In this document: piece after piece, positions 10,388 to 62,940 of the stretch
Position numbering within the stretch: the first letter of the stretch is position 1
Layout: every line of letters begins with the position of its first letter
Assembly: GCA_001600175.1 (NCBI GenBank)
Contig: BCJC01000008.1
Coordinates: 994,781 to 1,058,780 of the forward strand
DNA: 64,000 bases
Source of the DNA: Erythrobasidium yunnanense
Lineage: Eukaryota; Basidiomycota; Cystobasidiomycetes; Erythrobasidiales; Erythrobasidiaceae
Direction of reading: 5' to 3'
Made by a program: the position numbers and the translations under genes
The notes under the pieces: generated by a model
Seen by the model: the letters and a program-made list of their open reading frames with translations, nothing else
Told to the model about the DNA's origin: nothing
Databases searched by the model: none

Positions 10388-12263
10388 CTAAGAATACAGA
10401 TCCTCCTCCTCTTCCATCAGGATCGGTGCCTCAGCAGCTTCCTCATCTTGCTTCGCCATTTTCTGGCTAGCAAGTGCTTCAGCTTCTTCGACACCTTTCA
10501 AGAAATCCTCATCTTCCTCTAGCTCAAAGTCCATATCCAGGCTCGCATTTGACGACGAGCCTGTTGTCAGAGAGGGAGGTGCTGTGACTTTAGCACTGTT
10601 CTCCGAGGCCATCTCCATCTCTCGCAGGATATCTTCCTCTTCTCCGAAATCGAAGTCATCGAAGTTGTCTTCATCCTGTGCAGGCTCAGATGCAGGCTTC
10701 GGAATCTGCTTTACTGGTTGAATCGCTGCAGTGGCTGGCTTCACTTTCGGGTTGAGATCCGTCTTTGGCTTGGCTGGAGCGGAATAGAAAGAGCTCGTTT
10801 CGCGCTTGCTCTGATGCCTGTTCTCTGCTTTTCGCGCTGCGTCCTCCATCTCACGCATCATCTCGTCCTCATCCGGGAAATCAAAGTCGTCCATGGTATC
10901 CTCCTCTTCCAGAACAGTCTTCTTCGCTGGCTGAGCAGCTGCTCCTGCCGTGTTGTCGTTGGACTTTGCAGCTGCACTTGCTGGTCGTTTCGAAGTGCTG
11001 CTTTCTTCTCTCTCCATCTCTAGCAAGGCAGCCATGTCGTCCTCGTCGTCCATTCCCATAGGCTCATCATCGAGATCGAAAACAAGATCCGCATCATTGA
11101 ACCCGGCTTCAGACATTGTACTGATTCTCGTATCAGGCGCTTGAGAACCAAAGAAGACATCACCATCATCATCTCCATTCCCAACAGCGGCCGATGACTG
11201 TCTCAACTGCTGGTAGGCTTCCTCTTCCTCATCTTCGTCTTCTCCGCCCAAGCGCATGTCTGCATCTCCTCCTCCAAGAGCTCCTCCAGGAGATGAAGTA
11301 GGAATATTATCGAAATAAGACTTCTTAGGTCTCGCAGCGGACGATGGATTCGTTCGGGAAGGAGAACCGCCCGCTTGACTTCCTGCGCGCTGGCCAGTCG
11401 ATGCCACGACGTCGACATTGTCATCGTCCCCGTTGAGGTCGGCGTGATTCGTAGCGTCTTCTGAAGTTGGTTTGGGCCGGAAAATACCACGCGCTTCATC
11501 TCGCCAATCGCGCATTTGGCTCTGTAAGTCACAACGGAAGTATATCAGTAGATGCCATACTTGCAAAAGATGTGTGACGCGAACCTGAAGAGCTCGCTTG
11601 TGACACAGCTTCTCGACGCTTTCAAGGGTGTCTCTGAAAGTCCCGCCCGGAAACATCTGATGCGCCCAAATCTGGTAGACAGACATCAGACGTCGCAAAT
11701 CTTCCTCCTGCGACACGCATAACGCGTGAGCCCATGTCTTTTAGGCGATGTTGTTGTTGACCAAGACCCACCTCGTGTCCTTTGCCTTTGATCTTGAATC
11801 CTTTAAGGCTGTCTTTGAGTTTGCGGAGTCCTCTATCGCCTAGCAGTCTCTCTTCATTCATTATCATTCGTTTACGAGGTGGTTTACGCGTTTTCTGTTC
11901 GCCGCCTTCTCCATCTTCGCCATTTTCGCCCTTCTTGCCCTTCTTGTTTCCCACCGTGATAGTATCATCAAGTAACAATTGCGATGCGTCCAATGCAGGC
12001 CGTTTCAGCGGTGGTGGCAGCCCAAATCCATCATTCTCGTTCTCGTCTTCTTCGTCCGCTCTCTCTGCATCGTCGAATAGCTTGTCGATATCCTCAGCAG
12101 TAGTCTTCTTGCGTCCTAAACGCGTAGCTAGATCATTGTCCTCGTCGTCGTCGCCCAGAAATCGCGGCGCTGGCCGTTTGAGCGCGTTTGTTTTGCCTTT
12201 TCCTTGGGCTTTACGCTGAGCTGCTATACCAGCTGGAGGTGGTGAGCTGAACAGCGAGGCCAT
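10388..12263 (-). CDS. CSM3: Replication fork protection component CSM3/Swi3 (TIPIN)
   Basis: Exons 12263-11772, 11707-11585, 11521-10388, giving 582 residues. The Swi3 domain is built across two introns: LLGDRGLRKLKDSLKGFKIK, then GHE-EEDLRRLMSVYQIWAHQM, then FPGGTFRDTLESVEKLCHKR and SQMRDWRDEARG. In yeasts this partner of Tof1/Swi1 stabilises stalled forks and supports the S-phase checkpoint in the nucleus. The N-terminal 150 residues are charged with acidic DDDEDND and basic patches. The long C-terminal region carries several acidic repeats of the form EEED-x-D-DFDFPDEDEMMREMED and DDFDFGEEEDILREMEMA. These recur at about 60-100-residue spacing and look like acidic helical linear motifs. 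Intron 2 (63 nt) is stop-free and in frame. Confidence 0.87.
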
Positions 12264-30083: not shown

Positions 30084-32688
30084 TCAATCTACAACGACAA
30101 GTTTACTGAAGGCCGGGTTGGCCAGGACTTTTGCGAGTTGCTGAACAGGAGTAACCTCCGTCTTCTGTTTCTTTGCTGATCTCGTCGACTCTCCCTCTAC
30201 TGGCTCATTCAGATCATCATACTCGTCCTTCTCTCCCTGCAATTCCTTCTCCTTCTCAGCAGCTGCCTGCTCTTCCTCCTCTGCCTGGCCCAGGAAGACC
30301 TTCATCAAGCTGCCAGAGAAGCCACTCATCATTTCCACGCCCATCTCGTCCGCTTGAGCAGGCAGTGTAGACCCTGTATACGCGCTTCCTTGGATATTCC
30401 AGTACACCACAGTAGGCAGATCATATCCTGCTTTAGCGTAGTTTTCCTTGATGATCTGATGAGGTGTCTTCAACGTCGCTGACTTGGTGCTCAGCTCGCG
30501 CTTGCGCTTGAGCCATGCGTCGATGCCGTGTTTGTCCATGTATTTCGCGTCCCGATGGAAGTCATCTTCCTCCTCCTCTTCTTCCTCCTGCATGGCCTGG
30601 TCGAGTTGCATGTCGGAGAAGATAAAGACCTTCTTGATGAAGTCCTCCTTCTTCAAGTCGTTCTTGATCGCAATATCGAGTAGCAGCCTAAAGACCTTGT
30701 GAAGCGACGTGTTCATTCCCCAGTCCGCCCTGCTCATGCTCTGCGCTATATCGCTTAACGAGCCACCTTCTTTCAATCTGTTGATCTTCGGATCGGCTGA
30801 AAAGGTTATGAACGCTTGATTGAAAGGTGGCTTTGCCAGTTGAGCGCATAGGATTCCCAATGAGACAGAGACAAGGATCGGTAGAGGGCGCTTCTTCGAC
30901 TCTTCACTAACGCAGCCAATGGACCCCATAGAGCCTGACACATCGACAACTGCGATTGAATTTGCCAATGCTGCAGAAGACGATTCGCGGAGGTTATTGA
31001 CCATCGAGTTCCACTGTGAGTTGGTCAGGCTCTCCATGGCCCGCTGATACTCGTCTTGAAATTCAGGCGGGACTTTCTGCTTTGCGACTTCTCCTCGGAC
31101 TAGAAGAGCATCGGCTAGCAGTTCGTGCGGGAACAGCGTAGCTCCTGATACCTTTCTCTGGCCATTTGCTACGTCCTCGAGGTATTTAATAAAGCGTCTT
31201 GTATCGTTCCTGAAAAATGCAGCTTTGTGCAGCGCCATAGCCCTACTAGGTACTCTCGAGTAGTTCAGGTCTTCCCACTCTCCTGCTGACATCTTCACTT
31301 CGGGAATGTCGAGTGCCTTGCGCAGTGGAGCTAGTATTTTTGTTTGTAGAGCCACCCTACTACCTATAGAATCCTTGATGTCGGGGAATAGGATGGAAGA
31401 GATGGCGGTGGAGATGAAGAGAGCTTTGTCGTGAGAGCGAGATGGAGAGGGAGTCCATTTGCCAGCTAGAGTGAGTTGAGCGGAGATATTGTACTTCTCT
31501 GCTTGAGGTGCTGAAGCCAGCTGGTCGAGGATAGGCAGATCGAGCTTAAGCTTGTCGGCGAAGAGACGTGAGATGACGATGTAAGAAAGGCGGAACTTGC
31601 GGTCTGAAGCCAGCTTTTCGTGAAGACGAGCTTTCACCATATCATGCTTGACAGATTCGGAAGCTGCATGATAGGTTTGATACCATTCTGGAAGCTGCTT
31701 TGCACGCTTGTGAATGTCTCTGAAGGCGCTGTCTCGACATATTTGGGAAAGGCGTGGTCGTTTGTTCTGACGTTGACTGAAGATGGGTGCTGTGCATTTG
31801 CCGTTGAGACCATTCTTGAAGGCTAGAGTCATCGTTTTGTAGTCTATGTCTTTATCCAAAATGCCGTGTACTCCGAGTAGAAGCATGTTCAGAAGACTGT
31901 TGTAGACAAGGCGTGAGTAACACGAAAGTCATTGAATACAGAGAGGCTACGCACTCTTTGTAATAGCCATACGAGACAGACGGTCTTTCCACCAACTCGT
32001 GGACACCGTTCTCGAGCGGGATCTTCAGATCAGGTCTCTTGCACTCCTGATCGACTAGTAAGTGGATACTGGCGAAAACAACTTATCAGCTTGTGCTCGT
32101 TATGCAGAAAAGGGAGAAAGAGTTCTGACATACTTGTTAAAGAGGGTTCGGGGATGCCTTTGGTAGACCCAGGCCATGCATGAGTAGAAGACTTCATCTC
32201 TGACACCTTTGCCTTCAGCGATTGAGCGAGCTTGCCATATGATACGAAGGGTAGCCAGACTGTCCTTCCTCCATGATGCTTCGAGCAGAGGAAGGAGAGT
32301 GTCATTGGTAATGTTGGGAGCGAGCTGGAAGAAGAGGCTGCCAAAGCACGTCAGTACCGTCATTAGGTGAGAGAGGACATAACACCTACTCAACTGTCGC
32401 ATCGTTGCTGGTCGAATGAGCAGGCGCGTTGTTGGAGGTCCGGGAGTCTGGTTCCTTCAGCAGTGCAGTCATGAAGGCTGATTCACCAGCATCGTTCTTG
32501 CTTGATGTTGAAGCAGGCTGAGATCTCGGTAGCTTCGCAGTAGGGAGGTATCGGTCGAGCAGCTGATCCAGAGACTCGTTCTTCTTCAGTTCAGCTACCA
32601 CAGCTTCAGGCAGAGTGTAGTCTTTGGATGAAGCCCAGCTGCCCTTCTTGACAGATGCAGGCTCAGTAGGCATAGTTTCGGATGTCAT
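30084..32688 (-). CDS. DUF2828-family protein with vWA-like C-terminal half
   Basis: Exons 32688-32390, 32337-32134, 32068-31955, 31896-30084; 809 residues. The DUF2828 signature is rebuilt across introns: VDLFFQLAPNITNDTLLPLL, LEASWRKDSLATLRIIWQAR with SIAEGKGVRDEVFY, HPRTLFN, and SVSYGYYKEDLLNMLLLGVH. The C-terminal half is a von Willebrand A-like fold with a MIDAS pattern VVDVSGSMGS near residue 525, an FIFSDMQLDQAM strand and an acidic run. This architecture parallels the TROVE/Ro60 RNA-binding ring proteins. Members in plants and fungi have no settled function. The start at 32688 is the first ATG of the exon. Confidence 0.88.
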
Positions 32689-36770: not shown

Positions 36771-38235
36771 CCCCGCAATTTTCTTACTCTTAGTGCACGG
36801 TGATCGAGCGTGATCGAGAATAAGGAGAAAACGTGGGGTTTGTGCCGCTTTCTGCAATTTCGAATTCAAGGGAGATCCTCTTCCTTCGTCTTTCTTCTTC
36901 TTGTGTTCTTTCTTCTGCTTTGTTCTCGCAGTTCACCGTTATCCCGTCCTTTCTCTTGCGCTCTAGCTTGGAACCTTGGCTTTCAACGGTCCTGGCGTCA
37001 CTTGTTGAACGGGCCTGCCTGCTCTTGCGGATGGGCGTGAAAATGGAAGGATAGGCTAGCGCAACAGCACCTAGTCTGAGGGAGTCTTCCTTCTTGTGCT
37101 TCTTGCTTCTGCTCCAATCAATCTGCAAGCAATCAGTCCATCAACGATCCAGATAGAGTTGGTAAGTCTTGGTCTTGGGTGGTCGCGTGGGAGGAAGGGA
37201 GGTCGAAGGGAAAGACAAAGAGCGAGCTTGTTGTAAGGAACGAGCAACTCCTCCTCTCACACAACAACACACACTCAGCCTTCCTTCCACTTCCTCGTCC
37301 CAGCTCCGCCGTGCTTCTCTCTCTTTGTCTGTGCGTTGGTGGTCGTTGCATCTTGCCAGGATCGGAGTGTGCTGCTGTACCTTAATGAAGGGAGCGCTGA
37401 GTGGATGCATTGCATTGACTATACTTGCTTCTACTTGCTACTTCACTCTATTCACTAGCTGAGTGAGCCCCAACCCCTTGCTCTTGTGCCGAGTCGCGTC
37501 GCCCTTCTCTCAAATTGAGGAGAGAGCTGAGAGCTCGCAGCAAACTCTGGCTTCAGCACAACTCGACATTGTATCAACACTTTTTCACGAGTAGTGTATC
37601 ATCCTGCATCTACCATCAAGTATTCAAGACCTCGCTCTATCTTGTCGCAAATCCCTCACTTTCTTGGAGCGAAACGAGAGACGCCTTAAGACTAAGAGCG
37701 GGACTGGCGTTGAATGATAGCTAGGGAGAGAGCAACAAGCTTGAAGTGAGAGTAGCATAGTAGGTAGGCTACAACGCTGCATTATCCTTATCCCATCCCA
37801 TCGCCCATTCTCGTCAAAGTCCCGCGTTCCCAACCAGCTGGGATCGCAAGGGAAGGGAGAGCTCTGAGCAAGGGAGAGCTACGAAGCAGCTGCATTGATA
37901 GTGCTACTACATCATCACTATTACAGCTGCAGAAGTAGCGTCCATTCCCAGCTCTCTCTGCTAGCTGGCACCTCCTTTTTTATCAGCTCAAAGGGAGCTC
38001 ACTCACTCACTTGCATGGCACAAGGAGCCCGTCGCATCGCAGCCGGCAGAAACAGCAAGCAGATCCATACATCTACATACACATCGCCTACACATCTACA
38101 AAGGAATACAGAACATACGCTGATCGTCGTTTGTTCTTCCTCCCTTTTCCCCGTTTCTTGAACCGTCAAATTCGACCTCGTCCCCAACCACCCAACGCAA
38201 TCTACGACCTTCGTCTAATCTGCCAATCGCAGAAC
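36771..38235 (+). promoter_or_regulatory. Long pyrimidine-rich upstream region/leader of the PP1 regulatory subunit gene
   Basis: About 1.4 kb without a convincing gene. The plus strand carries many CT-rich tracts, for example around 36880-36930, 37240-37330 and 38130-38160, and CA-rich text just before the ATG at 38236. The CT-rich tracts and the open frame upstream of that ATG fit a long transcribed leader. Short ORFs here are low-complexity readings of the tracts. No specific operator was identified. Confidence 0.4.
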
Positions 38236-41200
38236 ATGCCCTACATCTCACCAGCACTCTCGCCCGTAAAGACATTCAACAGCAATGGGTATGGCTCAGC
38301 TTCGTCCTCGACATCATCGTCGCCCGTCTCGAGCACAAGGGTGTCCCCTTCGAACTCGTCCATAGGCTTATCGAGCAAGAACAACGTATCGTCAACGAGA
38401 ACAAGCGATGATGCCACTGCAAGCAATACATCTGCGAATGCAGGAGTGCAGTTCTCAGCGAGCTACGCAAATGGATTCCCCCGTCGGCCTCTGCAGAGAC
38501 ATCACTCGAGGTCGCATTCTTCAGACGCACTAGTGACCAGCGCGTCGTTATCATCATCGTCATCATCACGTCAATCATCTTCCTCAAACTACGCCTTCCC
38601 TTCCAAAGCCACGCCCGAATACATCTACGTCCATCCTGCGTCACCTGGCCAAACCCACCACCAACACGAACGGCAAAGCAGCACACCTTCTTCATCCACC
38701 ACCTCTGTATATTCAGCATCATCATCATATTCTTCTCTTGGTTCTTCTTCCTCCTCTTCTTCGGCATATCATTCAAGACCTGCTCTCCGCTCACTCAGCT
38801 CATCCCGATCAAGCGTGCTTTCGAACGGCAGTAATGGCTCCACATCTACAATCATGTCAGCTGGTGATTCAGGGGACGTAGCACCACCCCGGACAGCGCG
38901 TAGCAGGAATAAGAAATTCCACCTTGGCTCTTCTTCAAATTCGAATGGAGGGAATTCAGGATCTACAAGCGCAGATAATAGTCCTAGAGGAAGCATCATT
39001 GCGCTTGAAGCGCAGGCATATACCCTCCCCCTACCGAATCTAGACACGATGTCCCCGCCCGCTTTCGCGAATAGATCGTCGAGCAGCCCCGCGCTCCTGG
39101 GCATGGCGGAAGAATCGAGTAGACAGTTAGGACACCCTTCTTCCTCGTCTCTACCTGTGCTGCAGGAAGATACTCCACTCAGTATGGAGTATAATCAACG
39201 GCAAGAGCAAGAGCGGGAGCGGGAGCAGCCTGAACAGGGCGAATACATGCTACGGAGCACGGATCTCAGTGCGGATGATTCGGCACTCATGACGTCTAGC
39301 GAGACGAGTTCTGGCTCTGGCTCAGCTAGTGGTAGCGATACGGAGTCTTTCGACGCTAACGGAGGAGAAGCATCGCAAGTCAAGAGTATCCGTATCCCAC
39401 GACGGCCGCTCATGAATGCAAAACCATCATGGGGAGATCTACCTACACCTACAATGGGCTCATCGACGTCTTTCTCGTTCGCGAATGGGAATGGAGAGGC
39501 CAATCTGACGCCTACGGGCATCTCGCCTGCAGACTCACCTGTGGATCATATGGGCAACAGCGTGTATCCCAACGGAGATAGCTACGAAATGATGGACACG
39601 ACTGCTGTACCGACACCAAAGGCAGAAGCTCCTTCTTCCTCGTCTTCATCTTCGGCGGCGGTGCCTACTTCTGGTGCTCTTGCACCATCTTCATTCAGAG
39701 TCAAGCGACCGACGCACATCAAGTCGTATTCGGAACGCGTAGATTCACCCATGAGCATCGAGTTCGAGTCTACTCATCGAGCACGACAAGCAGAGTTCGG
39801 CTCGCACCATCCTCTCGTACATCAAGGTCATCCCTCCGCTTCTCAAATAGCAGCCTCTTACTCAGGCCGCCATCAACGTTCTCATTCACATCGTCCTCCA
39901 CCGCTTCCTACGCCCATGCTTCGCAAGAAATCCGGAGAACTCGTCAAGTCTTCCATGAAGCATGATTCGCGTGCGCGGTCTGCGCCTACAACACCTACTG
40001 GACCCAAAGCAGTCCATTTCGACGAACAGCTGGAACGCGTGAAGCTTTTCTTGGCTCAGCAGAAACCGACAGCGGTGTCAAGAGATGGATCGCCAATAGA
40101 GACGGAGACGGAGGATGATTCAGAAGCTGCTTTCCCCTTCCCGCCTATGACGACTAGTATACCAGCTCAGATATCGCTCGTCATGCCTGATTTCCCAAAG
40201 AACATCCTTCCGGAATTGGGCGATAGAGCAGTATGCATGGAGACACTGGAGATTGCAGCAGATTGGAAGTCATTGAAGGGAACGTGTTTACTGAGGAACA
40301 TCGCGTTCGAGAAGAGGCTGTCTATCCGGTTTACACTGGATGACTGGCAGACTGTCTCTGAAGTTACGGGAGAATGGGCATCCACGCTCGTAGGAAGCAC
40401 GATCGACAGGTGGACATTCACAATCAAGCTCCAAGACATGCTAGCGCGCATCGAAGACCGCAAGATGTTCATCGCGATTCGGTACCAAGTCAACGGCGAA
40501 GAGATCTGGGACAACAATTATGGCAAGAACTACCTTGCTGAGTTCAGGAAGCAAGCGGCGAGGTCGCAGGCGGTGGTAGGAGGAGCAAGAGCCGCAAGAC
40601 ATGAATGGGCAGTCACGAACCCTGGACAAGCAAGCGAGCGCATGGCGGATCTACGGAGAGAGTTGGACAGATTAGTCGCAGACCAAGATGACTATGCTCT
40701 AGGCGCAGACGAACTCATCCTATCCCCTACCTCTACGGCGGTAGCAGGTGGAGCAGGAGGTCCAGCTTCGGCGCTCTCTCCGAACGCCCAGCATATCACG
40801 CTTAGATATCAGCCGAGATACCTGGGAGGTGAAGCACTTCCTCTGGCACAAGCTCCTGCCTCAACTACCTTCTCAAGCAGGTATGACTTCGGTGCAAGCT
40901 TGAAGAACGAGAAGGCCGCAAGGATCACGAACAGCAGCAATCCAGCAAACTACAACAGCCCACAAAGCGCTCATGCCATCCTAGACAACCCATACTTTGC
41001 TTCGCACGCACCTACAGAAGCTATGGTGTCATCGTGGAGGAACAACAACGCCGCTGCTGCTTCCATCATGTCTCCAGCTCCGTCTTCGCAGACTAGCTCT
41101 CTCCACTCTTCGCCTCCTCAGCCACCTCAGCCTACCCTTCCAAACCTCTACGCCGACGATAGACATATCGCGACGAGCATCATCGGTGGTATGCCTACTG

Positions 41201-42172
41201 CCATGCTAGGCGAACCTTCCGCGACCACACCTCCCGCAAGCTTCACAGGATCGAATTACTACCCTCGGACAGAGGCGAACGGAGTCGTATCGACAGACTT
41301 CGGACTTCCAAACTACATGTCGATGCATTCAGTCGCTTCTGGAAGCCCTCTGACTGCAGTTTCACCTCTTCCGGATCTCGTTCATTTCGACTCGCCTGCG
41401 CTGGGCGTAGTAGGAGGAGAGTTTGTAGGAGGAGCAGCTTTGTCGAGACAGGCTAGGTTCAATTCTTTCCCGCCCGGAAAGAGTGGACTCAGGTCACCCA
41501 ATGCCCGAGCATCTGCGCAAGAGACATTGGCTTCTTTGGAACCTTCTCTCGACGATCAAGATCCTCTGGATACAAGCAACTACTCTCCAGCCATGTCTCC
41601 TGCGCAGCTCTCTCCGCCTCGTCAAGCTTCTCCACCTCCTCGCCCGCTCTCGCCAGAGGATCTGCTCTCGCCCTCTCCTTCGTCAGCTAGTACAGATACT
41701 AGTATCTCGACGCCCCAGTCCCCAAACGGGTCGCCTCCGCTCAAGATGTATGCCCCATATCTGGGAGACGGAGGCGGTAGACCAGATATGGGATCTGATA
41801 CTTACTTCAACTTTGTCCATCGCTGTGAGTTGCTCGTCTATCCTTTGTTTACCAAAGATCGGCTATTGACTTGCTCGGTCAATCAACCCAGACTGCTGGG
41901 GCAACAGTGATGGCTCTACCACCTCTTCATCTGCTTCGACCAGCAGTACGAGTACAGCACTAGGTCTTGCAGGCCTCAACTCGCTAGACTCTGCTACTCC
42001 TCGTCGGTCTACACCGCCCAGCTCCTGCTCTGCCAGTCTGCTCTCTTCGCCCACTGCGAGCACATCGGGATCTAGGACACCTTCTCCGAGGAATGGCTCA
42101 CCTTCGTTGGAGAATGTAGCTAGAATGGAGCAGAATGGATACATGTATGGTCCTCCTACCGTCGAGATCTGA
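38236..42172 (+). CDS. Glycogen-targeting PP1 regulatory subunit with CBM21 domain (GAC1/PIG-like)
   Basis: Two exons, 38236-41824 and 41892-42172; 1,289 residues starting MPYISPALSPVKTF. A KAVHF motif near residue 591 fits the PP1-docking RVxF pattern. The CBM21 domain spans about residues 646-770: LVMPDFPKN, VCMETLEIAADWKSLKGTCL, LRNIAFEKRLSIRFTLDDWQ then TVSEVTGEW, and ending YQVNGEEIWDNNYGKNYLAE. This combination is found in subunits such as yeast Gac1, which bring protein phosphatase 1 to glycogen and glycogen synthase. The rest is disordered, with serine homopolymers (SSSSSS, TCA/TCT repeats) and proline-rich tracts (SPPRQASPPPRPLSPEDLL). The small second exon gives the tail beginning YCWGNSDGS and ending PPTVEI. 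The in-frame text upstream of 38236 lacks an ATG. Confidence 0.88.
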
Positions 42173-43182: not shown

Positions 43183-46100
43183 TCATACTTCTTTATCAGC
43201 TTCTCCGTCCGCGTCTACTGCACCCTCCTGAGCGGGATAGTCCAGCTGTGCTGCTGGCAGATCCGCATTGGCCGCTGCTATGTCCATCTGCGATGCGCCT
43301 TTCTCGCCTTCTTGTTTTTGCAACTCTGTATCGCTAGTAGTTGCAGTCTGCTCTCCCTTCTCCTGAAGTATGCTGCTCTGGGTGATACTGACTGTCTCGG
43401 TCACTGCAGGATCAGCTTGCTCCTCAGCCTCCCCGCCCGAGTTGTCGGTCGGCTCAATCATCGTTGTTGACGCGACCTCCTCAATTACGACAGTAGCTTC
43501 GATTGGTTCTGCTTGTGAGGTCATTGGCAGGTCCTCTTCGATTGGTGCGATCTCTAAGTTGGCCTCCACAGTCACGGTCTCTTCCCTTACCACATCAGTT
43601 GCTCCTTCTACTACTGCCTCGGGTACCTGTGGCGCCGAGTTCTCCGCCTCAGCTGGTGCCTCAAAGCTTGCCTGAGTCTCATTTGATGCTTGTACAGCTT
43701 GTTGCGCAATGGGAGATGCTACAGATGTATCTTCTGCGAGAGCGTTGTCCACGTCTATTGGCTGCCACCCAAGCACTGGCTCTTGGGTGATGACTTCTGT
43801 ACTTGGCTCGCCCGATTTATCGGACGTCAGAGTATTTGATGCAGCTGCGCCCTCAACTTCGCTTGCTGCAGGCTGCTCAGCTTTGTTGGGAGTTGCCGGA
43901 GATTTGATCATCGACGGCATTCCCAAGCAGGTCCGTTGCAGCCGCATCTGTAGATGGTCGGGCATCGTCACGGAGAAGGCCAGACGGTACTGTATCGCTG
44001 GTCTCCGACGGCTCGACATGATTGACCGCGATGTGGTCAGCATCGCTTGTTTGTGCGTCTGCTCGCTCTGTCTGAGCTTCGTGGCTTGGCTTCATCGCCT
44101 GCGGCACTTCGGCATTGGAAAATTGCGATGAGGTAACAGCCTCTGCTTGAGCCATGGCCTCTCGTGTAGCCTCTTCTATGGCTTTTTCGGCTGCTGCATC
44201 TTGAGACTCCGGCCTTGGCGTCGTACGCTCGTGCTGCAGAGCACTGTCCGAAGACTGCGCCGTCGAGGCTGCGGCAGGTAACAGAGGTTCTGTCTCATCG
44301 TCCGATGCCTCCTGCACCGTTGTCTGCTGTTGCGGATCGTGCTCCTCGACCGGCACTAGCTCTTGCTGTTCGGTCCCGTCTCCCAAGTCATCTTTCGTAG
44401 GAAGAGGTTGTCGGCCATCCTCGACCCACTGTACATACTCTTCAATGACTTTTGGCCATTCTTGGGCATCCGCAACGAAGCCTGTGATTTGCGTCCTGTC
44501 TTTATCGGCGAAGGTGACGGCATGCACGAAGTTCAGAGTAGCCTGCCACAGTTCCTCCGTTACAGGCTCCTCGCGGTCGAGGACGTCGGTATAATACTCG
44601 AGAAGGTCGTCACCGACTGTGGAGTAGCTAGCCAATATGCAGGACCAAGTTGCTATAACGGTCTGCCGGAAATGGACAAATCAGTCTCTATCTGCTATCG
44701 AAGTGTGGAGTAATTACTTCGAACGGGTAATCACTTGTCTGAAAATCGTGCATCACGCCGTATACATAGTTGTAGAAGCCAAAGTAACGCTGAGGAATGC
44801 ACTCATAATCAACAGGCTCAGCGTCTTCAGCAGCCTCCGCTCCCTTGCGAGAGTGCACTCGAGGGAAGACTGTGTCCCAAAGGTTCTGCAGATACTGCTG
44901 AAGCCTTTCCGGTGAGTCGATCCTACCCATATAGTGATCAGTATTTGCGTTCTTTGGAGGGTCTGTGTAAGCTTACATCTCATCTAGCATGTGCTCTCTG
45001 AACTTGTCGCGGCCCAACATGTGTACGGATGTGCTTTGAAGCTGCCAAGCTAGCAGCATGAGATGCGGATCCAGGTTGGCTCTGAAGTCCTCGGGGCTAG
45101 TAGTCTCGGTAGCATTGCTGTTCTTGTCGTGAATAAGGGGAAATGTCATCTGAGATGTGAATAGCTTTGCAATCTCCCTCTCAGCTATAGTAGTCGAAGA
45201 AAAGTCTGCAGAGGCAGCATGTAAGCATTCCACTGCACTCGTTCAAGTTCGTCACGTCCTTACCTGTAAAGGTTGACATCCATTGATCTAATTTAGCCTT
45301 GCTAAATCGCTCCTCTTCTGATAGACCGGGATTTGAGGTGCCCTCTGCATCTTCTTCGCCTTCACTGGCTTTGCCACTGGAAGGCTCAACAGACGTTTTT
45401 GGGACGATGGAGTCTTCTCTGTAGGTAGCAGGTGCTTTTCGGGGCCGACGCCCTGCTGTTGGTACACTGTAGATGCCAACTTTGGACGTGCCGTTGGGTT
45501 TCCGAGCGGATGGAGTAGTCTCCTCGCCAATCAGACTTTGATTGCCGGATGAGCTGTTTCGCAAGCCTGCAATGGAAGGCGGGTCTATGTCCATCTTTTG
45601 TGAATTCGCAACAGCTCGGCGGATCTTGTCCAAAGGCGGCTGCAACCTCGGTGAGTCATCCTTATCGTCTACCTCCATCTCAAATTCGAACTCCTCGTGC
45701 TCTTCTAGGATGTACACCGTAACATCATTCTCGTCATCCACGACATCGTCGGGCTCAATGACTTCGTACTCCGATAGGATATGTAAAGACAGCCGCGACC
45801 TGCGAGGCTTAAAGGAGGTGGAAGCTTGCTCATTATGCCGCGGCGCTGAAGATTCTCGTCTAGGAGACGCTCTCTTCGAGTGCTTGTTCGCCCCTCCAAA
45901 AGTTCTCTTAGAAACTGCACGAGCAGGCTGTGGAGATGCAAGATTCGTGTCACCGTCTCTGGTACCGGCGAAGTCTTCGTCATTGTGATATCGAGCTGAA
46001 GTTGAAGCTGCCACAGTGATAGAGTCGTCATCTCTATCGCTGACTACCCTGCTGTTCTTGTTACTCTGCAAAGAAGGCTTGTTGCTGTTGGACATCGTCT

Positions 46101-49100
46101 GCGTGCTTTCCGTAGGTATGGACAAGTACGGCAAACGTGAAGGACCTGCCTCAGACGTGCCGTCCTGACAATATGCCGCATCTTGGGGAAGGAACGAGCT
46201 TTGGGAGTAGTCGAAGTTGTCGTTGTCCATGTAACTATCGTCATGATAGCCGAACGGCGGTAAAGACTCGCGCTTTTCAGACTGATTACCCAAAGATTCT
46301 GTATCTATTGCGAGGTGGGGTGGCCGGAGCGCAGAACTGAAAGAAGTGGAAGGCTCTTCCGATTTCCGTTTCGAGCTACCGAAGAGAGTGCTGCTCTTCG
46401 CAACGGTAACGACGTCTTCATCATCATCGTCCGAGTAAGTCTCGGCTAGCGATTTGCGGATGCCTCGCGATATGCCTCTGGAGAATCCTAAAGGAGCTGG
46501 CTTACCAGGTGAAAGGGATCGGACAGGTCGTTGGGACTTCTTCCCAGCCGACTGAAAGGCAGTTGACGACTTTCTCGCCTTCTTGGTGTCACGCTGCCGA
46601 ACGATGCACTATATCAGCGATCCAGCGTACATGGACATGATTTTGCGCACGCACCTTAGCACGACCGTTTGACATGCTAGACTCGTCCTCCAGTTTCATG
46701 GGAGTTCCTAGCTTCTCCCATTCTTTGGTGCGCTGCCTTGAGGAGGGCTTTTTCGCATCGCGGGAAGTAGCTTCGCTGTTGCTGTCTTGACTAGTGGACC
46801 GATCACCACCTTGGGCAGCTGTAAGACCTGACTGGAGCTCCGGCGGAAGATCAAAGTCGTCTTCATCGCCATTTTCATTTGGTTGTCTCGGCACAGGAAT
46901 GTTGTCATCAATACTCTTGGCTGCACCGGGCATGCTCTTGCGAGAGCGCTGCGCTTTACTTTGTGCGGGAGCCGGCGATTTGCTCTGTGATGGATGAATC
47001 ATCTCGCCTGAAAAGCTTTCATTGACTTCCGCAACAGCAATGTCTGGGACAAGAATATTCTCGAGATGATCGTCTCCCTCATATGTCAGTTCTGCCGGAT
47101 GAAATGAAGAGGAAGCGGCATCCGTACTGGGTCCTGCTTCGTCATGCTCTACTTCAGTGTCGATTTGCCGGACTTCCGGGGTCCGCCGAAGAGCAGGAGA
47201 AGCGTTGATCGATGAGCGTCCTAGACCTTCTGCTGTTGGAGTTGAACGGGATTCTTCGGGCCCGAGCCGAGTAGCCTGATCTGCTTCATCTGCACGAACT
47301 TCGGGTGCAGCAGAAATCGACGCATTGCTTCCGAGCATAGTCTGTGTGGGCTGTACCACTTCTTCGAGTTGCCCATCGTTCAATGAGACATCCTCATGAA
47401 TGCTCATAATGCCTTGCTGTTCGGCTCGAGATGCGTGGGGCTCCGCTTCTGACACGGTAGCTGGCTTCTCGACCTTTGGCGCAACCTTGACGGTCCTCGG
47501 CGTGCGCGAAGCATTCAGATCCGCAATATACCCGGATGTGTTCGATGATGGCAAAGTTTCGGCTTGGTTGAGCGATGCTTCAGAAGGCGACTGCTCTTGC
47601 ATGTCCTGTTGGTTGTTGAGCCGTGCGAGGGGTTCTTCGAGGCCAGCTTGCAGGTTGAGTATGGCTGAACTTCTGCTGATCTCTGAGGGCAGACCGCCCT
47701 CCTTGCCTGCTTGTGCATTGGACTCTGGCTGCACAGATACTTCTCGTTGAGCAACCGCAGCTTCCTCAACGCCGAATGTGTCTGGATCGCTCTCCATAGC
47801 TTGCTGCGTATCTGGCAAATTGAGTAATGCAGAGTGGATCGCTACGGTTTCCGTAAATTGAAAAGGATGTAGTGGAAGACTCTGAGATTGGGAAGGTAAA
47901 GGGTCCATATCGACTTCCATCTCTCCACTGCTCACATCGGCGATAGCACCAGTTGCGTCACTTCGCTCTTCCTCATCTCGCTGCACAATCTCAACAGTAT
48001 TTACTTGCGTTAACCCGATGGTCCCTTCCTTATCTTTAGAAACGCGCTCTGCCCTAGTGACCACGATCTTCTCTACAACTGCGGCGCTTCCCGGCTGTTC
48101 CTCTTCGGCTTCTGAGAAAATACCTGCAGAGGCATCCGAATCGTCTCCTGCAGTCTCGATGACTGTAGTTTCTGTCTGGAAGACAGAGGTGACGGCTTCG
48201 TCGTCTGCTTCGATATCAGGCAGTGCTGCAGCGGAGCGCACAGGTTCCGGTGAGGTGGAGGGCGAACTAGCCTGGCGAGCTACAGCGATTGAAGGCTGCG
48301 CAGGTCTTGGGCGAGTCGTCTTACGAGCTGCGCTGGGCTTTGAACGGCTAGGCTTTCTTTGTTTCCTGATGTCGGCTTCTAAGTCATCGTCCGAAACAAT
48401 TGCTTCGGGCGTGACCTTTTCTTGTTTGCTGGACGTGACGGACGGAGAAATTGAGGCAGGCTGTAAATTCTCGGCTTCAGATTGCTCTTGAGCGTCTGAA
48501 GGTGCTTCTTGAGGTGGACCGGCATGTAGATCGATAAGGGACGTATCTGGTATGATAGTTAGCGGCTCGCTTGGCTCAGCAGGTGGCGACCTTGAGGCTT
48601 CGACAGAAGGCGAGCGTGTGGGGATATCCGCGGTTGGTAGATCTTCCCGTTCGTCATCAATGTCTTGCAAAGGGGCAGCAAGGGTAGTCTTTTTAGTCTT
48701 GCTAGAGCTTCCCTTCAGCTTTGCTGAGCCACCGACTTGAGGAGAGACCGTAGGTTTGGACGAAGAGGCGCGAGGACTAGACCCAATGCGGATAGTGGAT
48801 GACTGAGTCTTCTTTCTCTGCGGCGAAAGAGGCTTGTCCGGCGAAAAGAGCATCTCGTCATCTGAGCCATCAGAGTCTGCTCGAACAGGTGCTTTCTCCT
48901 CTTTGTGTTGCGCATCTTCCGCCACCTCCGACAATCTCGAGAATATCAGAGAAGGAGGTAAAGCATATGGATCTTCTTCCTCAGGTCCATCCTCTGTAGC
49001 GCTACTATCGATCTCCTGCACTACAGGCGCCGGGGCTTTCGCCTTTGTGGACTTGGTGACTTTGCTAGACTTGCTTGTTGTAGCAGGAGGAGGAGGAGGG

Positions 49101-51657
49101 GACGGGGACCGCGACGGAGATGCCGGTCGAGACTGCACAGGCGTAGATACCGCAGACTTCTTCCTAGCTTTGTTAAGGACGCTCTTTGACTTCGCCTTGG
49201 CTTGCGTGGCTTTCATGACGGCCGGCTCGTCATCCGAGTCTGACTCGGGCTCTGGTGCAGGTGCAGGTGCAGGCGCAGGCGCTGCCTTCTGCTTCTCCGG
49301 CTTGCTCGTCGAAGTCGATACCTTTCGATCATTATCAGATTCGCGTATGCTGGGTCTCCTACTAATGACTTCTACGCTGAACCTTGCTTCAGGTAATGAA
49401 GCTCTCTTGACTGGCTTGCTAGACGAACTTGCAGCAGAAGCATCGGATTTCCTCAAGCTCGGCCGGCGTGAAGGTTTGGTAGGAACAGTATTGGCAGCAG
49501 GCCTGTAATCTTCCTGTTCCTCTTCCGCAGGCTGCTTGCCTTTGTTCGACTTCGATCTCGAGTTGGATGTATTCCCTCTGTCTGAATCTGCTTGAAGCCT
49601 ATCCTCATCCGAAGAAGGGTATAGATCTTCGTTAACCGACAAGCCAGGTATAGTATCCTGGAAAGCAGGTACGTAGCCGTTCTTGTCTGCCTTGGGCTTC
49701 GATTTCGAGCTACTTGAAGGTCGACTAGGAGCGCTAACAAGCTTCCTTGCGCTACTCTTCTTGGATGATGTAGGTACGGTAGCTACGACCATGCCGTCAT
49801 CATCCGAATCATCCTCCAATTCATCCACTTCTTCCTCACTCGACACAGCAGCATGCTTAGGAGCAGGCTTTGCGACCTTTCGAACGGGCGTAGGTACAGT
49901 TTTGCCCTTACTTTCCCGTCGTTCGCTCCTTTCTGGCTGCGGCAAAGATGCTCTGGGCTTCTTGACTTTCTCTGGTGACTTCGTCTTAGTAGTGGGAACA
50001 GCCACGACAACATTGTCTTCATCGTCGTCATCATCTTGGCTTTCCGCCGCCGCCGAGGTATTGGAGGAAATGCTTTCGGCTTGTGCTGGAGCCGCCTTCC
50101 GCTTTGTCGAAGATGGTCGTGAGGTAGAAGCCGCTGGACTGGCTTCCGCTCGAGAATTGCTCGTCGTGAAAGGTCTAGGACGAGCGCTGCTGCTGGCTTT
50201 GGCAGATTTGTCGACTGAAGTGACAGAGGTTTGCTTGGCGGAGACTTTCCTCGCGGGTATGACCACCGTCGGTTGTAGTAGAGGAGGCGATTGATGCTTC
50301 TGGTGAAAAGAATGCTTCTTCAGTGTTATGCATCGATCGCGAAAAGCGAAAACAAGAGCTTACCTTGGCTAAGCTACTTCGTCTTCCCTCTCCCGTACTT
50401 GTCTTGCTTGCTCCGACCTTGATGGGTGCAGGTGCTACAGCAGGAGTGTACGATGTGCCAGCTTGTGCTTTCGCCTTAGTCGCGCTTGCGATAGATGGGA
50501 TAATCTCCACGTCGTCTTCCGAATCACTACCATGATACTCTTCATACTGTTTCGTAGGTGGTGCTGAAGGTTTCGCTGGCTTTGCAGCATTCGGAGCCGC
50601 CTTGGCTGGTGAAGCTGTACTTGTAGAAGTTGTTTTCTTCTTGACGGGCGGTTGAGTCGCTTTGCTCGATGAGGAAGCTTTCTTTGATGAGATGACAGCG
50701 GCTGCTACGATGTCGGAATCGCTGCTTTCCTCGTCTTCGTTAGCCATGCTGTTTGAGGCAGCCGCCGGCTTGATTTGTACCTCTGAAGATCCAGAGGAGC
50801 TAGTAGACTCGCGACGCCTCTTCTTGCTGGTAGCAGTAGGGCCGGTCTCAGAAAGTCTCTTGGCTTGTACCTTGCTTGGTTTGGACGGTCCTGTCGAGGT
50901 AGAGCTCTTCTTCCTTCTGACATCGTCAAGCACTTCTTCACGCTCCTTCTCCTGACACCCTCAAGTATCAGAATGGTAAAATACCCTCAGTAGTATGCCT
51001 GCTCACCTTGCGGCCGGCTGTCTCTACAGAGTCTCGGCCTTTCTTCTTTAGCTTGCTAGACTGCTCTTGCGTCCTGCGTGACCTGTCCTCGTCCTCAATA
51101 TCCTCAGGAGGCTCATAGTATCTATTCTTTGGGCGTTTCTTGCTAGGCTGTTGATCCGCTTTACCAGATTTGGCCGGGCTCTTCTTGTCTGGTATCTTCT
51201 GCTTCTTGCTGCTGTTGTTGCTGCTGCTGCTTCCACCAATGTACTCGTTCTCCTGCTGTAGTTGATGTGCTACATCGTCCTTTCTTGACCGCTTCTTAGC
51301 TGGTGGGGATGGCTCTTCCAGGCGTCTCTTCTTTGATCCGGTCCCTGCGGATGCACCTTCTAAACTGCTTCTGGCTTTGACCGATGGTTCTCTGCTGCTT
51401 GATGTTGATTGCTGCTTCTTTGCGGTAGAGCTGCTCTGTTTGCTGCTGCTTGCATTACCGCTCTTTTTGGCAGCCGGTGGTGCTTGTTTCGCTGGGATTG
51501 ATGTTACAACAACATCTGAATCATCATCATCGTCGTTGTCTGATCCTGATCCTGAGCCTGACGATGCAGACGTCGACGCTTGCTGCTGCTGCTGCTGCTG
51601 CTTCCTGCTGGACTGTGCGGTCGCCGTTCCAGCGTGCTTTCGCTTGAAGATGGCCAT
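43183..51657 (-). CDS. Giant protein with C-terminal DCN1-type PONY (cullin neddylation) domain
   Basis: Eight exons, all in phase: 51657-51007, 50951-50364, 50299-46655, 46593-45264, 45205-44977, 44922-44718, 44662-43916, 43872-43183; about 2,694 residues. Residues 1-2050 are disordered, rich in Ser/Lys/Glu, with a Q7 run. They contain at least six acidic blocks followed by a beta-branched core, e.g. DDSDVVVTSIPAK, SDSDIVAAAVISSKK, DEDNVVVAVPTTK, DDDGMVVATVPTSSK, resembling SUMO-interacting motifs. From about 2053 comes the PONY domain: FSKAKLDQWMSTFTDFSS, LDPHLMLLAWQLQSTSVHML, IDSPERLQQYLQNLW, CIPQRYFGFYNYVYGVMHDF, TVIATWSCILASYSTVGDDL, and EWPKVIEEYVQWVEDGR. Dcn1 proteins (usually about 260 residues) are NEDD8 E3 factors for cullins. 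The acidic patch Asp is Glu here. A two-gene model (break at 46.6 kb) is possible, but exon 4 has no early ATG and carries the sixth motif. The last intron (43 nt) is the weakest. Confidence 0.8.
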
Positions 51658-51966: not shown

Positions 51967-52673
51967 ATGCCGCCTATGCCCAGCTGTGCGTACTGCACGG
52001 ACGCCTTTTCCGCCGGGATCCCGATTTACGACTGTATCACTTCAACATGTGGTCATATCTTCCACGAGGCCTGTGCTAAGGAGGCAGAGTTAGAGACTGA
52101 AGAGCTATATCCTTGTCTCGCCAGAGACAAATGTGGGATTGGCCAGTGGATCGGGAAGGACATGAGGAGAAATTACGCTGTGGAAGCCATAGTCAGGCTA
52201 CTACAGGCGCCTGAGGTGGGAGATCCATCGACATCGCCGCAAGACACGACATCACGGACCACAGGACGAACGGCCGGCTCCACACTACCAGACGCATCCT
52301 TTCCGATGAGCCAGAATCCCGCGAAGAGAAGAAAGACGTCCGAAGAAAGCGCAGAGTCTATAGAGAGTGAGCCAATAAAGTCCAACATATATCTTCAAGG
52401 CTCACAAGCTATGCAGCAGGCCCACTATATATCAGCCGGGCCGCTGAAAATGCAAGCAACACTGAAGAGGCGATTGCGGACCAGGCAGAGGCTATTCTGA
52501 CCACTTACGAAGGAGAGACGGTCACAGAAGAGGCAGAGGAAGATCAAAAAGCGTTCGAACAGGAGGAACAGAGCAGGAAAGAAGCCTGGTTCTCCAGGAC
52601 TGTGGACGAGTATGGCGCGCCGCCACACAGTCAATACGTTCGAAGCTCGTATGCTCCATCAAGTCAACAATGA
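51967..52673 (+). CDS. RING-like zinc-finger protein
   Basis: Two exons, 51967-52379 and 52436-52673; 216 residues. The N-terminal 60 residues hold a RING/H2-type pattern: CAYC, a spaced Cys in YDCIT, then TCGHIFHEAC, and a final pair in CLARDKCG. The finger is followed by a hydrophobic helix YAVEAIVRLL. The rest is polar, with a basic KRRKTS (possible nuclear signal) and an acidic, glutamine-rich helix NTEEAIADQAEAILTTYEGE continuing into EEAEEDQKAFEQEEQSRKEA. The 56-base intron is inferred because it moves the reading into this long acidic helix. Likely an E3 ubiquitin-ligase or zinc scaffold; no orthologue recognised. It diverges from the giant PONY gene with about 310 bases between starts. 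Confidence 0.75.
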
Positions 52674-60662: not shown

Positions 60663-62940
60663 CTACTTGGGCACAGGATTCACTTTGTTCTGTATGCCTA
60701 GCAGAGAGCATAGCGCCTCTGTCTGTGGATTCGTATACCACGGTCCAGGCGCTCTGTTCTGGCCGCCTTCCTGCCCAGGATGCGGCGCAGTCTGCACAAA
60801 TTGCTGCACTTCCCTGATTTCCAAGCTAGTATCACTGCTTCCATCTTTGTAAACATTCTTCCGCAACCACTCAAGTTCCTTGGAGATCATGGCTTTGCAT
60901 ACCGTGCTGTCTCGCGGGAGAGGGTCTTGACGATACGACAATGAGAGGAGAGGATGGAAGGCTCGTGTTATAGCCAGCCAGATGGGATCGAAGGTCAATG
61001 TGGGAGGCTGCGAGTCGGCTTCTGTGGGGAGGTCGAAGATCTGGACCTCTAGAATCAGCATGATTGGTCTGGCGGTCGAGAGAAATATCCTTAAGTACCT
61101 GTAGGAAGTCCTGGCCGGGTAAGCACTTGCTCAATGCTAAGAACTTAGTTGCGTCCGCTTCCTTGTTCAAGGAGCCCGTCGGTGCTGTAACTTCAGATTT
61201 CGTAGTCTGAGCCTGCAAGGCTGGTGCAGCTGCGTCATCTTCGTCATCGATCATGATCTCGTCCGCGTTGCCGGTCTTCGCCGCTTGAGTACCCTGTGAA
61301 TGCGCTTCCTTGACTGAGATAGACTCGTCTATGCTGTTTGCCGGTAGATGATCCGTGAGAGTCGCTTCTGGGTGTTTGGGGTGTATCAATGCGTCCACGT
61401 CCCCTCCCACATGCTTATCAACCATCGCAGACCCGTTGTCATTGACCGGTTGCGCAGAATTACTCGCTTCTTCTTCTTCGCTGTCTACTACGTCCACTTC
61501 ATCCGGATTCGCCGATGCTATCTGCTTGCCATCGACTGGACTCTCCTCGTCATCTTCATCTATGAGCAGCTCATCTGGGTTGCCAGCTTGCGGTATCGTC
61601 GAAGGTGGTTGGCCAGGATTCGCATGCTGATGCTGTCGGGATATAGGCTTTCCATGTAGCAGAGTCGATTCTTTGTTGTGCTTGAACAAAGCTGGAAACT
61701 TGACGTGAAGATGGGCTGAGAACCAATAGCTCGGCTTGAGGGTTTCTAGCAACCCTCGTAAGGGTGGGGAGCCGAGCGTATTCGAGTTGATCTGTGCCAA
61801 TCAAGAGCAGGCGCCATTAATATCTGCTCCCTCCTTGCGCAAAACCCTGACACTGACCTCATCGCGGAAAAATGGTTTGGCTTTCAGCAAACGATTCGTA
61901 TCGCCGTATCTTTCGATCTCTAAAGGCCAATCGTGAGATAGGAAGATTGAAGGATATGCATCGAGCGTAGCGAGTTGTGCCAGCCGGCTTATATCGTATT
62001 CTCGTGTATGGTATATGCTTCGGATAGTCGACTTGTCATACGGCTGTCGTTCGAAACGACCTGGGAAGCAAGGAAGATGTGAGCGCTGTAGGCGATGTAA
62101 CGTTTGCTTTGTGGTCGGCCAGGACTAGCTCACCCTTCCGATAGTCTCCACTTTTGTAGATTCCGCTTGCGCCGGATATCCGGATGCCTTTGACCAGAAC
62201 AGAGCCCGCAGCTCCAAGGTAGTATATATTGGGAGCTAGCCTGACATCCATAGACTTTGGTAAGCTCAGACTGTCATTTCTGGCTTTGCGTAGCTTACCA
62301 TCCTCCGTGAAATCTGCGACGAGTCTGGTGTAAATACTACATCTATATAGATGTTTTGGATTTCTAGCTAGGTAGTCTGGGCAGCTTACAGTTCCCACAT
62401 GTAGTTGCTAGCTTCGTGATTACCTCCGATGACTAGCGTAAGCATAGGCGCGACTTTTTCGCCGGAGTAGTATCTTTCAGCAAGCTGTCAGCAAGTAGAC
62501 TTTGCGCGTATTGAGCAAGGTGCACTCACTTGTAGAAGCTTCCCATGTGCCTATACTTTTCAGGACACGCGAGAGTCTGAAGGTCCGAGTAGTTTCGCAT
62601 GGCCTGGACATAGCACAGAACCGATATAAGGGATGGGAGCCGTGTAGACAAGTGCCTATACAGGTTGGGCTCGCCTGGAAGTCACCGCATATGAGGAGCA
62701 AACCGATAGGGATTCCATCAGAAGCTTGGGCTTGCTGGAGGGTTGCGTAGATCTAATGGAGGGCATAGACATAAAGGTAGGCTGACTTTATTGAGCTCAT
62801 CTTTTTCTTCCAGGTAGTTCTCGGTCCTCACATTGTCGAGCTCGCCGTGACAGCACCCTTCGACAGCGACCTGCAGCAGCGCAACTTTCAGCTTCCTGAT
62901 GGCTTCAAGGATTATATCGTCAGTCTCAGCGCACTCTCAT
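60663..62940 (-). CDS. DBR1: RNA lariat debranching enzyme DBR1
   Basis: Ten exons: 62940-62935, 62870-62787, 62752-62675, 62603-62530, 62473-62390, 62313-62299, 62240-62134, 62060-61858, 61791-61099, 61046-60663; 575 residues. Metallophosphoesterase motifs all appear in order once spliced: [73 protein letters not shown] and FSAHLHVKF. Dbr1 hydrolyses the 2'-5' bond of intron lariats in the nucleus. Exon 1 codes only ATG-AGA, exon 6 is 15 bases, and the intron after GDFQ starts with GC. The third-from-last part (about residues 270-440) is an acidic, disordered insert with [15 protein letters not shown] and [14 protein letters not shown]. The DBR1 C-terminal domain resumes at [14 protein letters not shown]. 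Confidence 0.95.

Follow-up and report, generated by a model that had tools for sequence, protein, structure and literature searches.

DCN proteins are small factors, and SUMO-targeted ubiquitin ligases of the Slx5/RNF4 type couple several SUMO-interacting motifs (SIMs) to a RING domain. The available parts of two papers on human DCN proteins describe an N-terminus thought to set location and a DAD patch that binds cullins, and hold the roles of the variable N-termini to be largely unclear (PMC4886823; PMC6393609). Here we describe a gene of Erythrobasidium yunnanense encoding a very long low-complexity protein closed by a PONY domain, on a contig that also carries an ordinary Dcn1. Our first choice among the explanations, held tentatively, is a nuclear giant DCN-family protein in which an arm of SIM-like motifs would tether the protein and the PONY domain would recruit cullin or NEDD8 machinery with altered cullin binding.

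Gene model and low-complexity arm

A minus-strand gene of seven exons runs from 51657 to 43877 within the window (the whole 64,000-nucleotide stretch of DNA analysed) and encodes 2,477 residues as the DNA stands (Table 1). Its six introns, each 54-64 nt long, have GT..AG ends and phases in agreement, and the chosen frame had a higher codon score than the other five frames in 7/7 exons, with the score trained on 11 window segments that all lie outside this gene. Judged from these features of the DNA, the giant PONY gene is real. Exon 3 is present once in the 20.9 Mb genome examined.

Table 1. Features of the giant PONY gene (window coordinates)
Feature	Position	Strand	Remarks
Exon 1	51007..51657	(-)	aa 1-217; start ATG at 51657; codon score
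Exon 2	50364..50951	(-)	aa 218-413; codon score
Exon 3	46655..50299	(-)	aa 414-1628; 3,645 nt; low complexity; codon score
Intron 3, disputed junction	46594..46654	(-)	61 nt; alternative acceptor 46609 likewise in frame
Exon 4	45264..46593	(-)	aa 1629-2072, final codon split; motif copies and PONY start
Exon 5	44977..45205	(-)	N-terminal subdomain of PONY
Exon 6	44718..44922	(-)	PONY; ~20-residue insertion separating subdomains
Exon 7	43877..44662	(-)	PONY end and acidic tail; stop at 43877
PONY domain	44411..45291	(-)	spans exons 4-7 (aa about 2063-2300); match to Pfam Cullin_binding at 44426-44665
SIM-like module NDDDDDSDVVVTSIPAKQAPP	51475..51537	(-)	aa 41-61
Module copy EESSDSDIVAAAVISSKKASS	50670..50732	(-)	aa 291-311; outside strict core rule
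SIM-like module GSDSEDDVEIIPSIASATKAK	50469..50531	(-)	aa 358-378
SIM-like module DDDDDEDNVVVAVPTTKTKSP	49973..50035	(-)	aa 502-522
Module copy DDSDDDGMVVATVPTSSKKSS	49751..49813	(-)	aa 576-596; outside strict core rule
Weak module copy ESDSDDEPAVMKATQAKAKSK	49184..49246	(-)	aa 765-785; outside strict core rule
SIM-like module DDDDEDVVTVAKSSTLFGSSK	46369..46431	(-)	aa 1683-1703; exon 4; left out of profile building
Possible module SDRDDDSITVAASTSARYHND	45979..46041	(-)	aa 1813-1833; no higher than controls
SIM-like core ...ENDVTVYILEEHEEF	45688..45750	(-)	aa 1910-1930; profile score 0.9 only
Acidic reading frame (eighth exon of the initial annotation)	43183..44091	(-)	frame differs from PONY frame; join unsupported

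The initial annotation had drawn eight exons and a protein of ~2,700 residues. Seven of these exons hold, and the eighth as drawn there, which would add the acidic reading frame, was rejected: the PONY-carrying frame stops at 43877, the acidic frame at 43183-44091 is a different one, and the coding signal jumps between frames at 43884-43930 (43.88-43.93 kb). Fourteen introns of 40-130 nt could be proposed to link the two frames, none of them credible; 1/14 has G at the fifth intron base compared with 5/6 accepted donors, only one other contains a branch-point-like word, and an abrupt frame change beats all 14 by 6.5 to 18.8 bits. With this abrupt frame change and no credible intron, the protein measures 2,477 residues as the DNA stands, or about 2,700 should the shift of frame, or an unusual intron, prove genuine.

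Six residues (S, A, P, E, K and D) are abundant in the ~2,050-residue arm ahead of the PONY domain, and Trp and Cys each occur a single time. Length and composition thus agree with the Ser/Lys/Glu-rich region described before, and the arm is probably mostly disordered, as judged by that composition. Scanning of the arm as three pieces (aa 1-413, 414-1628 and 1629-2071) found no UBA and no Pfam family over its cut-off; DUF3246 and B3GALT2_N matched in exon 4 under cut-off and were set aside. Seven basic runs in the protein match an NLS-like pattern.

A PONY domain with a changed DAD patch

The spliced PONY region, for which the initial annotation had proposed a profile search, matches Pfam Cullin_binding (PF03556) at 41.3 bits (2.4e-10, cut-off 27.9) over profile positions 19-118 of 118, and the same profile run exon by exon on the genome gives 30 bits. 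Galdieria DCUN1 (3kev_A) is the sole distinct structure chain found at E up to 1, with a whole-sequence E of 5.4e-7; of its two pieces the C-terminal is significant alone (i-E-value 0.0021) and the N-terminal has an i-E-value of 4.5. A four-sequence PONY alignment has 13 invariant columns. The predicted fold of the single-exon C-terminal stretch had a mean pLDDT of 50.3, too low for use. In a viral contig collection the PONY sequence had no pattern match, and in a prokaryotic contig collection the alignment had 16, of which tblastn confirmed 0.

We mapped the DAD positions via human numbering (D211, A235 and D241, given in the part of PMC6393609 available), and found E, Q (E beside Trp) and E in the giant protein. 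The Glu noted earlier in the conserved C-terminal helix is thus present, and none of the three positions is retained in a patch that the available text of PMC4886823 terms invariant. D, A and D are intact in Galdieria and in a separate UBA+PONY Dcn1 elsewhere on the same contig, a paralogue to which the giant PONY domain has weak BLASTP similarity (E 0.015, 24/118 identical). Residues identical to the 16 that the accessible portion of PMC5658359 lists for the human pocket of the acetylated UBC12 N-terminus number 2/16 in the giant protein and 5/16 in the paralogue, the first four being aligned with uncertainty. The genome has three loci for the cullin NEDD8-acceptor domain. On this pattern of residues, the best reading is that the cullin activity of the giant PONY protein is altered or lost. 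The 'scaffold-type neddylation factor' proposed earlier is possible, but the DAD patch is altered at 3/3 positions and an intact-patch Dcn1 lies on the same contig.

Given the changed DAD patch and the 2/16 pocket residues, the PONY domain may no longer act in neddylation. The strongest alternative takes this further: the domain would be a degenerate remnant that serves a nuclear or chromatin scaffold only as a structural or protein-binding cap, with no role in NEDD8 transfer. We regard this as quite possible though short of probable. Human DCN proteins mutated at DAD lose cullin binding, according to the portion of PMC4886823 available, and an ordinary Dcn1 exists here for the standard job; yet Asp has given way to Glu at two DAD positions with charge kept, the Pfam match lies far over its cut-off, the alignment retains its invariant columns, and the pocket of the paralogue has drifted too.

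SIM-like modules in a probable single gene

The arm carries repeated acidic-hydrophobic modules that look like SUMO-interacting motifs, and may have partners other than SUMO. We counted five acid-first SIM-like cores (V/I hydrophobic beside acidic) in the 2,050-residue arm compared with 4 in 26,359 control residues, and with acid allowed on either side 6 compared with 10 in the same controls, which are 64 frames of at least 250 aa measured from stop to stop, perhaps not all of them genes, drawn from records L010-L027 and from the window outside 43.0-51.7 kb. Shuffled arm sequences never reached five acid-first cores (0/500 at each of four block sizes). Since the motif was defined post hoc, after copies had been noticed, this enrichment is inflated by some degree. 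PF11976 (Rad60-SLD) has nine matches in the genome, SUMO and ubiquitin not being told apart among them; four adjoin one another on C2 and are polyubiquitin-like. The initial 'chromatin-type' idea narrows to these repeated SUMO-interacting-like motifs plus the NLS-like basic runs.

Two further readings were considered. The protein might be a SUMO-steered neddylation platform, in which SIMs on a disordered arm bring the PONY domain with its reshaped patch to nuclear sites modified by SUMO, and the SUMO signal determines both the cullin to be neddylated and the place; we consider this unlikely, and if true it would be the NEDD8 counterpart of the SUMO-targeted ubiquitin ligases. Slightly more doubtful still is an extra active NEDD8 E3 whose long arm is regulatory, DCNL4/5-like but far longer and free of any SUMO link: the available text of PMC4886823 gives DCNL4/5 as nuclear and predicts unstructured N-termini for human DCNL3-5, but the DAD patch is altered here and the repeated acidic-VVxV modules would be left to be explained.

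The modules also bear on the junction at 46.6 kb. A profile built from the six copies upstream of this intron scores 14.6 in exon 4, compared with a control best of 11.1 (64 frames), and 0/300 local shuffles of exon 4 reach 14.6; two further exon 4 candidates, at 9.5 and 0.9, fall below the control best. The first Met of exon 4 is at aa 1750, and the 121 codons before it score 0.15 bits per codon, with the five other frames all negative. Because the coding signal continues, exon 4 lacks a Met for 121 codons and the acidic-then-VVxV module recurs on both sides of intron 3, the junction is most likely internal to a single gene, as far as sequence can tell. Two misjoined neighbours, one for a low-complexity protein that stops near 46.6 kb and one for a PONY protein that begins within exon 4 (the earlier two-gene alternative), are very improbable: the exon 3 frame does reach a stop 21 codons beyond the intron 3 donor and the upstream stretch by itself matches no family, but the coding stretches are just 61 nt apart, intron 3 has GT..AG ends and a branch-point-like CTGAT, the codons before the exon 4 Met score as coding, and the two sides share a module.

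Comparison with known DCN proteins and SUMO-targeted ligases

Under the tethered DCN-family reading that we favour, a single gene would encode a giant, probably nuclear, PONY protein whose ~2,050-residue arm bears at least five acid-flanked hydrophobic cores resembling SUMO-interacting motifs. From these cores we infer a probable tethering to SUMO-modified nuclear complexes, with the arm anchoring the protein through many weak contacts. The C-terminal PONY domain would carry a particular cullin, or NEDD8 machinery, to these complexes, and cullin binding would be weaker or more selective than in ordinary Dcn1 because of the E-(Q or E)-E found at the DAD positions. The disorder, nuclear location, affinity for SUMO, selectivity among cullins and scaffold role are all putative.

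Our literature search found nothing on PONY or DCN1-like proteins in fungi or on Dcn1 neddylation in basidiomycetes, and titles and abstract openings on related topics held no description of an arm-plus-PONY architecture. Like Dcn1 and DCNL1-2 (UBA + PONY), the giant protein has a C-terminal PONY domain, with a clear C-terminal subdomain and a weakly aligning N-terminal one; it differs in having no UBA found, a ~2,050-residue arm, a changed DAD patch, a PONY insertion and an acidic tail. With human DCNL4 and DCNL5 it shares a low-complexity N-terminus ahead of PONY, its own bearing NLS-like basic runs, and we know of no SIM array in DCNL4/5. The sizes are far apart, 27.5 kDa for human DCNL5 (in the available part of PMC4886823) and 2,477 residues here. 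With an ordinary Dcn1 in the same genome, a natural DCN-type protein that has a 2,050-residue motif-array arm and a changed patch would offer a case for studying re-targeting or re-use of the PONY domain and a possible SUMO-to-NEDD8 link. Slx5/RNF4-type ligases are alike in linking multiple SIM-like motifs to a module for ubiquitin-like conjugation; the giant protein has PONY (NEDD8/cullin) in place of RING, and its SIMs are candidates.

Gene model of the giant gene

The window covers positions 994781-1058780 of its contig. In a genome of 20.9 Mb and 10 contigs, we resolved the minus-strand gene with a long low-complexity arm and a C-terminal PONY domain (the giant gene) into seven exons, whose conceptual translation comprises 2,477 residues. 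Its six introns are 54-64 nt long, have consistent phases and in 6/6 cases GT..AG ends. By a codon score trained on 11 segments of the window with the giant gene left out, the chosen frame beats five alternatives in 7/7 exons (0.14 to 0.29 bits per codon, the others -0.03 or less). The sequence of exon 3 occurs once in a genome-wide search.

Features of the giant gene and neighbouring reading frames, in window positions
Feature	Position	Strand	Remarks
Exon 1	51657-51007	-	begins with the start ATG at 51657
Exon 2	50951-50364	-	
Exon 3	50299-46655	-	
Exon 4	46593-45264	-	
Exon 5	45205-44977	-	
Exon 6	44922-44718	-	
Exon 7	44662-43877	-	PONY-bearing frame stops at 43877
Frame switch	43884-43930	-	positions scoring <=3 bits below best switch point
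Second open frame	43183-44091	-	rich in acidic residues
Divergent gene	51967-52371	+	ATG at 51967
Swi3-type replication fork protection protein	10391-11740	-	PF07962, 54.5 bits; long acidic tail
DUF2828 and DUF7788 frame	30087-31928	-	unknown-function families, strong matches (200 and 217 bits)
1,323-residue frame	37939-41907	+	largely low complexity; CBM_21 starch/carbohydrate-binding module, 94 bits
Lariat debranching enzyme, C-terminal part	60874-61800	-	DBR1, 29.6 bits; low-complexity acidic stretch

The divergent gene lies 309 bp from the giant gene start and opens with a zinc-binding stretch of RING/PHD-like character, which matches 17 Pfam families, mostly RING/PHD/C1, at E up to 1, all 17 below cut-off.

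A gene boundary at 46.6 kb, against which the initial annotation had staked its single-gene reading, was checked and the evidence points to one gene. The case that the coding stretches on both sides belong together is good, not final: the gap between them is only 61 nt, the first 121 codons of exon 4 are coding by codon score and lack Met, and a module recurs across the gap. This module, an acidic run followed by a V/I core and an S/T/K-rich stretch, has six copies upstream of 46.6 kb; a profile built from them matches aa 1683-1703 in exon 4 with a score of 14.6, compared with a best of 11.1 among 64 control frames and 0/300 local shuffles of exon 4 reaching 14.6. Two other exon 4 candidates (9.5 and 0.9) do not exceed the best control frame.

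At the 3′ end, the initial annotation had proposed an eighth exon and a product of about 2,700 residues. Coding signal in the second open frame begins at about 43.92 kb, and 14 candidate introns of 40-130 nt could join it to the PONY frame, but only one of the 14 contains a branch-point-like word, their donors are unlike the six accepted donors of the gene, and an abrupt frame switch outscores every one of them by 6.5 to 18.8 bits. No credible intron lies at the switch. It may reflect a misassembly or a genuine frame change, or the gene may end at 43877 with something else following. Neither the eighth exon nor the greater length is thus borne out; both stay unproven.

The PONY domain and its DAD patch

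Pfam Cullin_binding recognises the spliced PONY stretch at 41.3 bits (cut-off 27.9), and about 20 inserted residues lie between the subdomains. With E up to 1 as the limit, PDB sequences yield a single match, 3kev, a DCUN1 protein from Galdieria (whole-sequence E 5.4e-7; i-E-values 0.0021 and 4.5 for the C- and N-terminal pieces). The same contig encodes an ordinary UBA+PONY Dcn1 paralogue at about 510.7-509.6 kb of the contig (start provisional; human DCNL1 match 6e-29), to which the giant PONY domain bears a weak likeness (BLASTP E 0.015, 24/118 identical). The cullin-binding DAD patch is described as invariant (PMC4886823) and lies at human D211, A235 and D241 (PMC6393609). Whereas the paralogue and the Galdieria protein have D-A-D, the giant protein aligns at these positions as E, Q (E beside Trp) and E. 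Among the 16 UBC12-pocket residues named in PMC5658359, the giant protein is identical to human at 2/16 and the paralogue at 5/16, with an uncertain alignment at the first four; the low match may weigh against normal activity of the giant domain, though not as strongly as its altered DAD patch.

The low-complexity arm and a proposed role

S, K, E, D, P, T, Q, R, N, G and A make up 83% of the first 2,050 residues, which include one Trp, one Cys and seven basic runs that fit an NLS-like pattern. The arm has five SUMO-interacting-type cores with the acid first (aa 49, 365, 510, 1689 and 1921), compared with four in 26,359 residues of 64 control reading frames and three in the 26 disorder-like frames among them (11,702 residues); five such cores are reached by 0/500 shuffles at any of four block sizes. 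With acid allowed on either side the counts are 6 in the arm vs 10 in the 64 frames, and all these enrichment figures are overstated because the core definition was fixed once the motifs were already in view. SUMO is general to eukaryotes and is assumed to be present here; nine places in the genome match Rad60-SLD, a family with SUMO among its members, and may be SUMO or ubiquitin, and three loci match the cullin NEDD8-acceptor domain.

In human DCN proteins, localisation is believed to be governed by the N-terminus, with the PONY domain acting on cullins (PMC4886823); Dcn1 of fission yeast is nuclear and diffuse (PMC5483010). By analogy with these proteins, the giant arm would bring the PONY domain to nuclear complexes rich in SUMO, where, with its altered patch, that domain would either act selectively on one cullin or have lost the ability to neddylate. 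Of the two, we consider a scaffold whose binding is altered somewhat likelier than a pure remnant.

The arm-plus-PONY architecture may already be annotated in relatives; among the titles and abstract starts listed from a library with few subscription papers, none describes it.
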